Source: Bacteroidales bacterium (GTDB lineage Bacteria; Bacteroidota; Bacteroidia; Bacteroidales; UBA1715). From it: a stretch of DNA of 34,822 bases. Shown one piece after another: positions 15,475-20,610 of this stretch; positions within the stretch are counted from its first letter, which is position 1; the number at the start of each line of letters is the position of its first letter. A program made the translations under genes and the position numbers. The notes beneath the pieces were generated by a model. That model had not been told where the DNA came from and did not search any database. It saw only the letters and a program-made list of their open reading frames with translations. The stretch spans positions 1 through 34,822 of the forward strand of contig JAQICB010000093.1 in assembly GCA_027858745.1 (NCBI GenBank), written 5' to 3'.

Positions 15475-15855
15475 CTACTCCTCTATCTCTATCATTTTGA
15501 ATGGTATACGAATAATTGACTGATAATCTTCTCCTGCTTCCAACATATCTTCATCATCCTCCTCGTAATACCAATTAATCTCAATCTCTTTTCCGTTTTT
15601 AGAAATTCCTTCCAACTTTTTGAACACATCAAGAATACACTTCGAAGAACTTGTATTAAAATATTCTAATTGTATCTGAACCGTTGTTTTATCTTGGGGA
15701 CTGTTAGTGTACTCTTCAAGCCAATCAATCATTGGTTTATAAAACTCGATTGAATTTTCAGGAATAGAACGACCTTTTATTTCAATTAATCCGGTTTGAT
15801 AGTCAAAATTCACTTCCGGAGTTTTAGGCGAACCGTCAATTTTTATACTTTCCAT
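15475..15855 (-). CDS. SiaC-family (DUF1987) regulatory phosphoprotein
   Basis: Small cytoplasmic switch protein of the SiaABCD type. In Pseudomonas aeruginosa, SiaC is phosphorylated by SiaB, dephosphorylated by SiaA, and in free form activates a diguanylate cyclase. The 126-residue product shows the family core: IKGRSIPENSIEFYKPMIDW, then LEYFNTSSSKCILDVFKKLE, then INWYYEEDDEDMLEAGEDY. The Thr in YFNTSSSK is residue 68, the same number as the Pseudomonas phosphosite. It follows the SiaB-SiaC fusion gene by 67 bases, with a -7 box in the gap, and precedes the GH9 gene by 83 bases. Its output partner here is unknown; no diguanylate cyclase is in the window. Confidence 0.88.
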   Translation of the reverse strand: MESIKIDGSPKTPEVNFDYQTGLIEIKGRSIPENSIEFYKPMIDWLEEYTNSPQDKTTVQIQLEYFNTSSSKCILDVFKKLEGISKNGKEIEINWYYEEDDEDMLEAGEDYQSIIRIPFKMIEIEE

Positions 15856-15882
15856 TACTTTACTTTTTCAATTATACTGTTA

Positions 15883-15890
15883 CAAAAATA
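15883..15890 (-). promoter_or_regulatory. -7 element upstream of the siaC-like gene
   Basis: TATTTTTG on the minus strand, fitting TAnnTTTG, 27 bases before the ATG and inside the 67-base gap after the kinase gene. It could give the small phosphoprotein extra expression relative to the kinase. No -33 box seen. Confidence 0.35.
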
Positions 15891-15922
15891 TATTTATCCG
15901 ATTAAAAAAAAAAATGAAATCA

Positions 15923-16798
15923 CTATTTTTCAAGTAAAACAAATTTTTTCTTCACTATTCTACTTATTTCTTGTGCATCATCCATAGCTAATTCATCATC
16001 TGAATCACAGGTCCATTCAATTTTCAAAGAAGGGGCAGAGTGTTGAATAACAACACGAATAAATCGCACCAAATTCTTTAAGGAAGATGAATTATAATAA
16101 TCCAAATCAACATGCAAAACCGGACGTTCCATTGCCGCAAAATCAGATTCATTTTCCGCAATCCAATTACAAATATCAATATAAAAACCGTCTGCATCCT
16201 CAGGACGAGACTGACCGTACATTACTATATTTTCATGTTTAAAATCAAATTGAATTAAGGGCGTGTGTTCAGTTTCCGAAATTCTATACAGTTTCATACT
16301 CTTCAAAGACAATTTTAATACAAGAGTAAATATAGTAGTTTTTTTTGACTTCTGTTCAAAATTATATTCAAAAGGACAATTTGTTTTTCTTTTTAGGATA
16401 AGCAAACCAAGACCGGCACCACCCTTTTTTGTTTTTTTCTCTGTTTTAATTGTTGTGAAATAATGTGATTTAAGCTCTTCATCAGACAAATAATTTATAA
16501 ATCTCAAGTAGGTCTGAATCTTTTGGGCAGATTTAGTTGAAACCGGATTGCTTGCCACAAATCGAATTTCATCACGACAATAGAAAATTTCAAAAAATAC
16601 AGGAAAATCAGATAAGACCTTTTGCGAATGCTTGTACATATTATCAAAACATTCAGCCGAAATCATATACAGACCTCGTCGTAACTGAGAAGGAAAATGC
16701 ATGGTGTCTATAATATTTGAAATTGAGGATAATGCCTCATTAACAGAATCATAGTCAATAACATCACTCGAAAACGAATATATTTTTTTTTCTTCCAT
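15923..16798 (-). CDS. SiaB-like GHKL kinase fused to a C-terminal SiaC-like domain
   Basis: The first 165 or so residues match the SiaB/DUF6272 kinase family. The N-box SAECFDNMYKHS has E49, N53 and H57, then comes FVASNPV (80-86), and the glycine lid KKGGAGLGLLILKRK runs from about 124. Residues 176-291 align along their length with the neighbouring SiaC protein: G-Q-S-R-P-E against G-R-S-I-P-E, CNWIAEN against IDWLEEY, LDYYNSSSLK against LEYFNTSSSK, and IEWTCDSDDEL against INWYYEEDDED. Ser237 occupies the place of the phosphorylated Thr. I infer a kinase carrying a copy of its substrate domain. It begins 3 bases after the AI-2E family gene, so they share an operon. Confidence 0.82.
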   Translation of the reverse strand: MEEKKIYSFSSDVIDYDSVNEALSSISNIIDTMHFPSQLRRGLYMISAECFDNMYKHSQKVLSDFPVFFEIFYCRDEIRFVASNPVSTKSAQKIQTYLRFINYLSDEELKSHYFTTIKTEKKTKKGGAGLGLLILKRKTNCPFEYNFEQKSKKTTIFTLVLKLSLKSMKLYRISETEHTPLIQFDFKHENIVMYGQSRPEDADGFYIDICNWIAENESDFAAMERPVLHVDLDYYNSSSLKNLVRFIRVVIQHSAPSLKIEWTCDSDDELAMDDAQEISRIVKKKFVLLEK

Positions 16799-17876: not shown

Positions 17877-20024
17877 TTATTCAACAAGCATTAATTCTTG
17901 CAAAATATAATCAGACTGTCCGTATTTTTCAATACAAAAAAGAATATATCTTACATCAACCATAATATTTCTACATATTTTTGAATCAAAATATAAGTCA
18001 CTCATAGTTCCATGATAATTTCTATCGAAATTTAATCCGATCATATGACCATGGGCATTAAAAACCGGACTTCCGGAACTTCCACCCGAAGTTTGATTAT
18101 CGGCAATAAAATTTACCTGCAAGCTATCATTCGAATAGCTTCCATAATCCTTCTGTTGAATATACGAAAATAAAAGTGTGTCTGCAGCATATACTTGTGG
18201 GTCAGAATTGTTTTTAGATATTACCCCCTCAGCTGTTGTATAGAAATCATACGACGATGAATCTGCCGTATAGCCACGAATGCCTCCAAAACTTACACGC
18301 AAAGTGCTATTCGCATCGGGACTCAGGGGTATTCCTTGAGCATCTGCATATAACATATTTAGTTTTACATATTCTTTTTGATAAAAATTAAACGAGACAA
18401 GTGCATACACATATTCTTGATACAGAGAATCGAGAATATACGAATACATGGTTTGTACAAATTGCATTCCTCTATCATTCTGAAATAAGGCAAGACAATC
18501 CTGGATATCGCAAGACTCACACTTCGATAAAATTTTATCATACTGTGCGGTATTAAACAAAAAACTTTGACGGCTTAGACGAGAAAAATATTTTTTTCGT
18601 TTTTTGTTTGTCATATTTCGATATTCTTCAGGAAGCATATCCAAATAAGCATGAGTAAACAGATAATTAATACCATTAAGAAATGATTCTTTTTCAACCT
18701 GCACATTCACTTTTTTAGCATACGCATCATACAAAGATTGTATACGAGACAAGCAGACAGAATCGCAGGGTGAGCCGGTATCATCAATTACGGAAAGTAT
18801 TTTTTGACCTGTTCGAAAGAAATCCATTCGCACAAAACTTTCGAAATAACTAATCAAATCAATATACGATTTATAAAACCGGCTAGCAGATTGATTATAT
18901 GTAAACAAAACAGAATCATATTTTTCATACAAAGAATCCTGACTTTTCAACCACGAAAACAATTCTTGCTCATACTGTTTTTTGTGTTCAATTACCTGAG
19001 CATTTTTAATTCCGAACTGTTCGCCTTGCCACTTTTCGTAATAATTCAGTAAACGATAATATTTTGTATAATACTGCAAATGCTCACTCTCTCCACGCTT
19101 CATATATTGAGCAATCGGTTTCAAACGTTGCTCACGTAAAGCTATTTGGAGCGGATTCAGACTATCGTATATAATACTGATTTCGTGCGCAGTAGAGAAA
19201 TTATTTGTTTCTGCCGGATATCCCATTACCATAGTAAAATCGCCTTCAGCAACTCCGGCCGTGGATAAGGAAATACTCTTTTGGGGAATATATGGTATAT
19301 TTGAAGCCGAATACTGTGCCGGATTATTGAGCGTATCGACATACATTCTTAGTAAGGCAAAATCAGCAGTATGTCGCGGCCACTTCCAATTATCTTTATC
19401 TGCACCAAACGAAGCTATATCGGCAGGCATAAAACCAACAAGCCGAACATCACGATAGACATGCGATGAAAACAAAAAATACTGATTGCCACTCCAAAAA
19501 GGTTCAATAGAATATTCTAATGTGGAATCCTGAGATTCATATACCGCTATTAAAGAATCGATAGTAGAATCTACTCGTACAGCATACATAAATTCGGAAA
19601 GCTCATCAGAAACAGAAGATAAAACAATATCGGTAACATCTTCAATAGTGGACAATACGGAAACTGTAAGCCCCTGAGCAGGAATCTCATCTCCTCTCCC
19701 CTGAGCCCATAAACCATTATTAATATAGTTTTGAGAGAGAGAACTTGCATGTTGCACAAAATACTCCACACAGTGGTAATTGGTGATAACTAAACCTTCT
19801 TCCGAAATTATACCCCCACTACAACCATTTCCGATTTTCACGACAGCATCTTTTAAGGATGGATTTTCGGCATCATAAATATCTTGAGGAGACATTTTGC
19901 AACCCTGTTGCTCCATAGATGGAAAAATAGAATGTTCAAGTAAAAATGGCATCCACAAACCTTCATGTGCAATTACGGAGAATTGCACACACAAAGCTGC
20001 ACACAAAATTAATACTCTATACAT
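17877..20024 (-). CDS. S46 family dipeptidyl-peptidase, DPP11-like (Asp/Glu-directed)
   Basis: Exported serine peptidase that removes dipeptides from the N-terminus of peptides. Numbering from ATG 20024 gives 715 residues: signal peptide 1-19 (cut before HEGLWMP), catalytic H84 in ITNYHCVE, D221 in TADFALLRMY, and nucleophile S650 in GGSSGSPVFN. R668 in GLNFDRN lies exactly 18 residues after the nucleophile, as Arg673 does to Ser655 in Porphyromonas DPP11; DPP7 has Gly there. This favours cleavage after Asp or Glu at P1. The frame extends one codon to a TTG at 20027, which I ignore. The start overlaps the maf stop by 8 bases, so it is translated from the same mRNA. Confidence 0.9.
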   Translation of the reverse strand: MYRVLILCAALCVQFSVIAHEGLWMPFLLEHSIFPSMEQQGCKMSPQDIYDAENPSLKDAVVKIGNGCSGGIISEEGLVITNYHCVEYFVQHASSLSQNYINNGLWAQGRGDEIPAQGLTVSVLSTIEDVTDIVLSSVSDELSEFMYAVRVDSTIDSLIAVYESQDSTLEYSIEPFWSGNQYFLFSSHVYRDVRLVGFMPADIASFGADKDNWKWPRHTADFALLRMYVDTLNNPAQYSASNIPYIPQKSISLSTAGVAEGDFTMVMGYPAETNNFSTAHEISIIYDSLNPLQIALREQRLKPIAQYMKRGESEHLQYYTKYYRLLNYYEKWQGEQFGIKNAQVIEHKKQYEQELFSWLKSQDSLYEKYDSVLFTYNQSASRFYKSYIDLISYFESFVRMDFFRTGQKILSVIDDTGSPCDSVCLSRIQSLYDAYAKKVNVQVEKESFLNGINYLFTHAYLDMLPEEYRNMTNKKRKKYFSRLSRQSFLFNTAQYDKILSKCESCDIQDCLALFQNDRGMQFVQTMYSYILDSLYQEYVYALVSFNFYQKEYVKLNMLYADAQGIPLSPDANSTLRVSFGGIRGYTADSSSYDFYTTAEGVISKNNSDPQVYAADTLLFSYIQQKDYGSYSNDSLQVNFIADNQTSGGSSGSPVFNAHGHMIGLNFDRNYHGTMSDLYFDSKICRNIMVDVRYILFCIEKYGQSDYILQELMLVE

Positions 20025-20610
20025 CAAAATTCATTATTTGTCGATACAACGCCTGCACCGGCAGTCCCATAATATTATAATACGAACCAAATATTGATTC
20101 AACACCCACAAATCCTATCCATTCCTGTACCCCATACGCCCCCGCTTTATCGAAAGGTTTATATTCTTCTATATAATATTGCACTTCCTCGTCAGACAAA
20201 TCAGTCATACACACATTACTGTACGAGACAAAAGATTTGTGTTTTTGTTGCGTACCAAAACAAACACCGGTAAGTACTTTATGCGTTTTTCCCGATAATT
20301 TCCGCAACATGTTCCAGGCATCTTCAATACCCGAAGGTTTATGCAAAATCTCATTATCAAGAATAACCACGGTATCGGCAGTTATTAGAAAGGTATTCTC
20401 ATCAATATCTTCTGCAATTGAAAGGAACTTTTTTTCAGCTAAAAATTGAGGAACATCTTCAACATGCATATCATTCGAAAATGATTCGTCAACATCTTTG
20501 GAGCAAACTTCAAATTCAATTCCCAAATCACGTAATAATTGAGTTCTGCGGGGCGATTTCGACCCCAACACAACAGAAAACGATGCTAATTTATGTTGCA
20601 ATGGATTCAT
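20017..20610 (-). CDS. maf: Maf-like nucleoside triphosphate pyrophosphatase (YhdE type)
   Basis: House-cleaning enzyme that hydrolyses non-canonical or excess nucleoside triphosphates to monophosphates. Seen: the phosphate-binding loop GSKSPRRTQLL at 16-26, the ITADTVVIL strand with the catalytic Asp, KPSGIEDAWNMLRKLSGKTHKVLTGV, and AGAYGVQEWIG. The Gln in the AYGVQ block is typical of the dTTP/UTP-specific YhdE branch rather than the m7GTP-specific YceF branch. Length 197 is normal. It overlaps the UbiA gene by 4 bases upstream and the S46 gene by 8 bases downstream. Confidence 0.92.
   Translation of the reverse strand: MNPLQHKLASFSVVLGSKSPRRTQLLRDLGIEFEVCSKDVDESFSNDMHVEDVPQFLAEKKFLSIAEDIDENTFLITADTVVILDNEILHKPSGIEDAWNMLRKLSGKTHKVLTGVCFGTQQKHKSFVSYSNVCMTDLSDEEVQYYIEEYKPFDKAGAYGVQEWIGFVGVESIFGSYYNIMGLPVQALYRQIMNFDV

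Follow-up and report, generated by a model that had tools for sequence, protein, structure and literature searches.

A SiaB-family kinase fused to a Ser-type SiaC domain beside a free Thr-type SiaC in one family of Bacteroidales

The closest described relatives of the locus presented here are the SiaABCD system of Pseudomonas aeruginosa and the mycobacterial protein Rv1364c. In the former, SiaB and SiaC form a 2:2 complex from which SiaC is let go once phosphorylated (PMC7647112), and unphosphorylated SiaC contacts SiaD via helices α2, which bears Thr68, and α3 (PMC8457831). Rv1364c of Mycobacterium tuberculosis, a member of the Rsb/sigma-factor family, unites a sensor, a PP2C phosphatase, an RsbW-type kinase and an antagonist in one chain, and PMC7693655 reports that the fused kinase autophosphorylates its own antagonist domain.

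The stretch of DNA analysed (the window, 34,822 nucleotides) is one whole contig (C115) of a Bacteroidales genome that is 98.35% complete and comprises 169 contigs. It encodes a locus that shares with SiaABCD (PDB 6kko) both folds, both Pfam families and the acceptor position of SiaC. Unlike in SiaABCD, however, the kinase and a SiaC are joined in one chain, the fused domain carries Ser as acceptor, a second, free SiaC is present, no SpoIIE-type phosphatase adjoins and no GGDEF match is found genome-wide. With Rv1364c the fusion shares the covalent linkage of a GHKL kinase to its antagonist substrate and a similar kinase fold, but it shows neither sensor nor phosphatase, and the likeness is one of principle only. 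The features of the locus, all on the minus strand, are the following.

15475..15855, minus strand: free SiaC, 126 amino acids, Thr-type (A-type clade)
15652..15654, minus strand: Thr68 of the free SiaC
15923..16798, minus strand: SiaB-like kinase/SiaC fusion, 291 amino acids (open reading frame, Pfam, AlphaFold2 model, fold match)
15926..16297, minus strand: fused SiaC domain, residues 168-291 (PF09345; SiaC fold)
16088..16090, minus strand: Ser237, equivalent to SiaC Thr68; Ser in all 11 family fusions
16295..16300, minus strand: joint Ser167-Met168 (ATG), read as a relict SiaC start codon
16301..16798, minus strand: GHKL-type kinase domain, residues 1-166 (DUF6272; SiaB fold)
16406..16423, minus strand: Gly-rich ATP-lid box GGAGLG, residues 126-131
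16547..16549, minus strand: Asn84, invariant in 11 fusions
16640..16654, minus strand: N-box E49-C-F-D-N53; E49 and N53 invariant in 11 fusions, Asp52 marking Ser-type kinases
17877..20027, minus strand: S46 peptidase gene, a synteny mark common to Ser-type kinase and SiaC loci, for which no mechanistic role is claimed

Residues 36-157 of the fusion match DUF6272 (PF19788) with E 2.8e-19 and 69.5 bits against a cut-off of 26.6, and residues 173-289 match SiaC PF09345 (E 4.9e-19, 68.6 bits, cut-off 24.5); no phosphatase or sensor domain is among the Pfam matches across the 291 residues. The free 126-residue neighbour is a SiaC by Pfam as well (E 1.7e-47). Under the NCBI rule both proteins are relatives and not equivalogs of SiaB and SiaC, because their NCBIfam scores fall below the cut-offs: the fusion reaches 63.8 bits with the SiaB-family model (cut-off 85 bits), and both proteins stay under the 150-bit cut-off of the SiaC equivalog model. 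An AlphaFold2 model of the fusion, built from 90 alignment rows, has a mean pLDDT of 93.3, with weaker blocks at residues 121-130 (pLDDT 71) and 161-170 (79, the joint); its pTM of 0.72 leaves the relative orientation of the domains open. The kinase half (model residues 1-163) matches SiaB 6kko_A with Z 20.2 and an rmsd of 2.3 over 154 aligned residues and also resembles the Rv1364c kinase 3ke6_B (Z 11.3), and the SiaC half (168-291) matches SiaC in 6k4f, 6kkp and 7e6g with Z 16.6. The initial annotation, a reading of the letters without database searches, had proposed that a kinase and a SiaC-like domain form one protein next to a free SiaC. Pfam, BLASTP and fold comparison bear this out, including the SiaC-like character of the C-terminal region, and both reading frames lie at the positions it gave.

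In a BLASTP alignment of the fusion and the free SiaC (24% identity, 125 columns, E 4e-14), YYNSSS of the fusion falls under YFNTSS of the free protein, as checked at the codons. Ser237 is thus the equivalent of Thr68, and the pair of acceptors read from the sequence at the outset is upheld. Ser is an ordinary acceptor, being found at this position in 55 of 171 free SiaC rows, which represent collected loci and not a random sample. Whereas residue 238 varies across the fusions (Ser, Val, Ile), Ser237 is invariant, and so is the surrounding motif N-S-x-S-L-K-N-x-x-R in all 11.

Besides Ser237, the kinase residues E49, N53, N84, G126 and G131 are invariant across the 11 family fusions, and at the level of sequence the motifs of the window's kinase are intact. 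We take the segment E49-N53 to be the N-box, Asn84 to lie where other GHKL kinases carry the G1 box, and the GGAGLG lid to be the G2 box. The predicted catalytic residue of SiaB is Glu61 (PMC7647112), and E49 would fall at this position given an offset of about 12 residues in the NCBIfam alignment. Kinase activity is likely in the window's genus. It appears uncertain in the genus here called g3, since position 52 is Gly or Ser in its seven fusions and the lid (GSPRIG, GSPHIG in two, GSPQIG, GTAGIG, GGAGIG in two) is altered in five of them.

The fusion is real, old and maintained. An assembly artefact is ruled out by one open frame in 11 genomes. Fusion and adjoining free SiaC occur together in 11 of the 14 genomes searched from the window's family, its own included, and in three genera (four genomes in g1 and g2, seven in g3); a fourth genus, g4, is without the fusion, which was not found in the three g4 genomes searched, one of them 79% complete. 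Relative to the window's proteins, the free SiaCs of the family are 59-83% identical and the fusions 26-49%. The pair is kept together in all 11 fusion genomes despite at least four kinds of upstream neighbour: an AI-2E transporter gene in the window and G001, Arg-tRNA synthetase in G002, glycosyltransferase 9 in G010, and TsaD in G013, with homologs there in five other g3 genomes. Since the upstream gene changes between genomes, the idea of an operon shared specifically with the AI-2E transporter was rejected. The g4 relatives carry a tandem kinase, and two of the three (L210 in G004, L213 in G007) have a SiaC classed by its motif, NTSSSK, as A-like. No kinase was found in the 3-3.5 kb stretches that carry these SiaCs. 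Because the two relatives have such a SiaC while the fusion is absent, an NTSSSK-type SiaC can evidently do without the fusion.

The fused SiaC is under purifying selection, with dN/dS of about 0.005, 0.02, 0.15 and 0.2 in four of the five pairs, those with computable dS. The dN values of the five genome pairs (Nei-Gojobori; dS at least 0.5 in all and saturated in 3 of 15 values; G000 is the window's own genome) are as follows.

G011/G013: kinase 0.106, fused SiaC 0.007, free SiaC 0.007
G006/G008: kinase 0.241, fused SiaC 0.030, free SiaC 0.035
G002/G005: kinase 0.158, fused SiaC 0.184, free SiaC 0.027
G012/G013: kinase 0.355, fused SiaC 0.144, free SiaC 0.073
G000/G001: kinase 0.564, fused SiaC 0.331, free SiaC 0.130

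The fused SiaC changes more slowly than the kinase in four of the five pairs, with G002/G005 as the exception; dN is lower for the free SiaC than for the fused domain in three pairs and about equal in the other two.

Beyond the family, wider searches do not show the fusion to be the standard form in Bacteroidota, a finding that would have refuted the initial annotation. In a search of 393 genomes drawn from the order and one of 395 drawn from the phylum, at most six candidates were scored per genome for most genomes. Among the order-wide matches listed, only G059 and G334 have a stop-free single-kinase/SiaC arrangement outside the family; the G059 match reaches position 247 of 292 in a fused frame that is partly unreadable, and G334 is open through both domains with no ATG, GTG or TTG start ahead of the kinase. 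Among the phylum-wide candidates, at most six scored per genome, only the window's own genome gave a match uninterrupted by stops across both domains. Patterns derived from the fused SiaC, run against 84,980 species genomes, hit 66 loci, of which 10 were fused kinase-SiaC frames, all from the window's family. Two neighbouring genes are the usual form among the collected loci: of 119 single-kinase rows, 104 have their SiaC as a separate gene no more than 200 bases away, 12 are fusions (the 11 of the family and G059) and 3 have none, in a collection that is not random, many regions having been picked from the order-wide search that favours kinase and SiaC in one frame. Among the papers listed from the open-access PMC literature (subscription papers being mostly outside it), titles and abstract beginnings name no SiaB-SiaC fusion, and no paper matched DUF6272.

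Several other arrangements were encountered. Single proteins of 499-553 residues with two kinases and a C-terminal SiaC (L150-L163, L166-L168) occur in several Bacteroidales families, 17 distinct ones in 20 regions picked for that; their second kinase has an altered lid, and the acceptor is Thr in 16 of 17. These proteins resemble the fusion in that SiaC is C-terminal to SiaB-like domains, but differ in their two kinase domains, in the prevailing Thr acceptor and in that their kinases and SiaCs sit on other branches. L115:3563-4408 encodes a protein with two SiaC-like domains, the first very divergent. Arrays of kinase, SiaC and SiaC genes are present at L070-L073 and L089, and L083 holds three consecutive SiaC genes with no kinase found. 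L076, on a contig titled Bifidobacterium breve, has a kinase and two SiaCs; this kinase groups with a Cyclobacteriaceae row (83), and the contig is probably mis-binned.

The origin of the fusion can be approached through two kinase lineages, which were defined by motif after the first tree. In A-type kinases the N-box ends QN..HH, the lid is mostly GGGGLG and the partner SiaC has Thr; in B-type, or Ser-type, kinases Asp or Glu precedes the N-box Asn and the partner SiaC has Ser. The 104 adjoining separate pairs, a count that leaves out the three SiaC-less rows and tandem kinases, divide into 76 Gln/Thr, 9 Gln/Ser (8 outside Bacteroidota and L094), 19 Asp-or-Glu/Ser and 0 Asp-or-Glu/Thr. The link between position 52 and the acceptor does not establish a specificity code: the position changes once on either tree, and one independent pair falls on starred branches. 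The covariation score of the link ranks 29 of 20,375. With one change per tree, position 52 marks a lineage and offers no independent evidence of contact.

In the kinase tree the fusion kinases group with 19 of the 20 Ser-type rows at 95/96, under a fusion label that took in the 17 first kinases of the kinase-kinase-SiaC proteins; a repeat without these joins them to all 20 Ser-type rows at 92/78, below the tool's star. Placement of the fusion kinase among Thr-type (A) kinases is rejected (p-AU 0.0068). On the SiaC side, the fused rows form one clade (100/100) inside a 99/96 set with five Ser-type rows, and their union with all twenty Ser-type SiaCs reaches 72/81 only. Both kinase trees and the 100/100 SiaC tree were computed with every second A-type and other Q-type row. 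The free SiaCs of the family sit in the order-wide Thr-type (A-type) clade at 100/99. The initial annotation had called the fused domain a copy of its neighbour. This is not supported: the fused SiaCs go with the Ser-type and the free ones with the Thr-type clade, and a recent copy, modelled as fused and free SiaCs of the family in one clade, is rejected (p-AU 0.035). The fused domain probably did not arise by copying of the adjoining gene; a single SiaC clade of fused, free and A-type proteins is not rejected (p-AU 0.186).

A Met codon stands at the joint in 4 of 11 fusions, namely in 4 of 4 from g1 and g2 and in 0 of 7 from g3. In the available flanks an S46 gene accompanies 9 of 20 Ser-type loci, none of 40 A-type loci and none of 48 others; because flank length varies (mostly about 1.5 to 4 kb), its absence counts for less where the flank is short. 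It lies one gene away from the fusion in the window and in G001 (2 of 11 fusions) and was not seen in the available flank of the other nine. Ser-type clusters of kinase and SiaC, with or without a further SiaC, resemble the fusion locus in lineage, in the Ser acceptor and, in several of them, in the nearby S46 gene, but they consist of separate genes, and where there is a third gene (L070-L073, L089) it is a Ser-type SiaC, in contrast to the Thr-type SiaC of the window. Trees, joint and synteny support an origin of the fusion from a Ser-type kinase and SiaC gene pair and not by copying of the neighbour; the stop between the B-type kinase and SiaC genes would have been lost, running the two together upstream of an A-type SiaC.

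S46 dipeptidyl-peptidase-family genes were seen near Ser-type modules in the window, at L070-L073, L089, L096, L097, L101 and L103, and further at L107, L125, L133, L186 and L187. Several of these loci also hold genes that by eye resemble RNase H, MarC and RNase HII. A link of the Ser-type SiaC switch to peptide use is possible.

The window contig has neither a SpoIIE nor a GGDEF match, just as had been noted from the sequence. A genome-wide search for a phosphatase and for GGDEF proteins, advised in the initial annotation, returned nine SpoIIE-type phosphatase matches, all on other contigs. For GGDEF there was no match, even with E allowed up to 0.1 and at a genome completeness of 98.35%; the identical GGDEF search was positive in 9 of 14 control genomes. 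As no GGDEF match was found in the genome, c-di-GMP made by a GGDEF protein is unlikely as the output, and a GGDEF cyclase is, on this search, an unlikely effector; the early suggestion of an output other than c-di-GMP gains from this. Four free SiaCs accompany the fused one in the genome. A second module (L042:6294-7792, contig C49 of G000) encodes a tandem-kinase protein of 371 residues, followed after 2 bases by a Thr-type SiaC. The genome's three DUF6272 matches are the fusion and this tandem pair, which falls in the two tandem-kinase clades, and no A-type kinase is among them. L034:3582-5893 (contig C33 of G000) has in a row a 130-residue protein without Pfam match, a STAS protein and a response-regulator/SpoIIE phosphatase, and looks like a classical partner-switch cluster. 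The genes next to the other SiaCs of this genome, which encode polyprenyl synthetase, patatin, Cys-tRNA synthetase and a DUF5686 protein, point to no effector.

By analogy with mycobacterial Rv1364c, the fusion most likely works as a switch that contains both its kinase and its substrate, and the free SiaC may be a second client. We put a probability of roughly 0.5 on the reading that a SiaB-family kinase, tethered to its cognate Ser-type SiaC, phosphorylates itself, is reset by a phosphatase and perhaps gates the free SiaC. The kinase would phosphorylate Ser237 either in cis or in the partner chain of a dimer; the unphosphorylated SiaC domain would hold the kinase and phospho-SiaC would let go, as in SiaB/SiaC; and one of the nine SpoIIE-type phosphatases would reset phospho-Ser237. 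In view of the precedents of Pseudomonas SiaB/SiaC and Rv1364c, self-phosphorylation of Ser237 with release of SiaC is the simplest reading. More tentatively, phosphorylation of Ser237 might free the kinase to act on the free Thr-type SiaC, and since the freed kinase would then serve a free SiaC for which the genome yielded no kinase of the same lineage, the tether may set a threshold between two SiaC outputs. A fuller scenario, which we hold only tentatively, is that the locus is a composite of two parallel SiaBC modules, in which a Ser-type kinase, fused to its SiaC, took over a Thr-type SiaC whose kinase had been lost. The tethered SiaC would be a gate on which ATP is spent, at Ser237 and with subsequent dephosphorylation, before the free SiaC is silenced, giving two ordered substrates and a c-di-GMP-independent output.

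An alternative is that the two neighbours are not coupled, the tandem kinase on C49 serving the free SiaC and the fusion being a separate switch. Trees that place fused and free SiaCs in different lineages fit this, and so do the g4 relatives, which without the fusion possess the tandem kinase and, in two of the three genomes, an NTSSSK-type SiaC. It is unlikely, however, as the pair is conserved in all 11 fusion genomes although the gene upstream is of at least four kinds. The same pairing in 11 of 11 would suit a tethered SiaC that is a built-in inhibitor or pseudo-substrate without turnover, displaced by the free Thr-type SiaC as the sole real client; the fused domain has Ser where the neighbour has Thr, and SiaB binds unphosphorylated SiaC tightly (PMC7647112). 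Yet Ser serves as an ordinary acceptor in 55 of 171 free SiaC rows, the kinase belongs to the Ser-type lineage and Ser237 is invariant though residue 238 varies, all of which renders this inhibitor rather unlikely. Adjacency in all 11 genomes and the 2:2 complex of SiaB and SiaC (PMC7647112) could also point to a scaffold, in which the fused SiaC would bind either the free SiaC or a phosphatase and deliver the free protein to the kinase; Pseudomonas SiaC alone, however, is monomeric by SEC-MALS (PMC8457831), and we regard a scaffold as very improbable.

It is also conceivable that the fused SiaC is the output itself, binding an effector as SiaC binds SiaD, with the kinase tuning it and perhaps losing activity in g3. 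Its low dN in G011/G013 (0.007, where the kinase has 0.106) and in G006/G008 (0.030, where the kinase has 0.241), the altered lid in five of seven g3 kinases and the invariance of N-S-x-S-L-K-N-x-x-R in the 11 fusions would fit such a role. The pair G002/G005 shows the opposite (fused SiaC 0.184, kinase 0.158), though, and E49, N53, N84, G126 and G131 are kept in all 11, so this role appears improbable.

The P. aeruginosa papers cited here treat SiaBC as a c-di-GMP switch. The present genome has members of the same kinase and substrate families and yields no GGDEF match. In Bacteroidales, Ser-type and Thr-type modules exist in parallel, and some are covalently fused. As a natural construct that holds kinase and substrate at a 1:1 ratio, the fusion lends itself to work on the phosphorylation of STAS-like proteins by GHKL kinases, and its genome poses the question of what role SiaC has where SiaD is absent.
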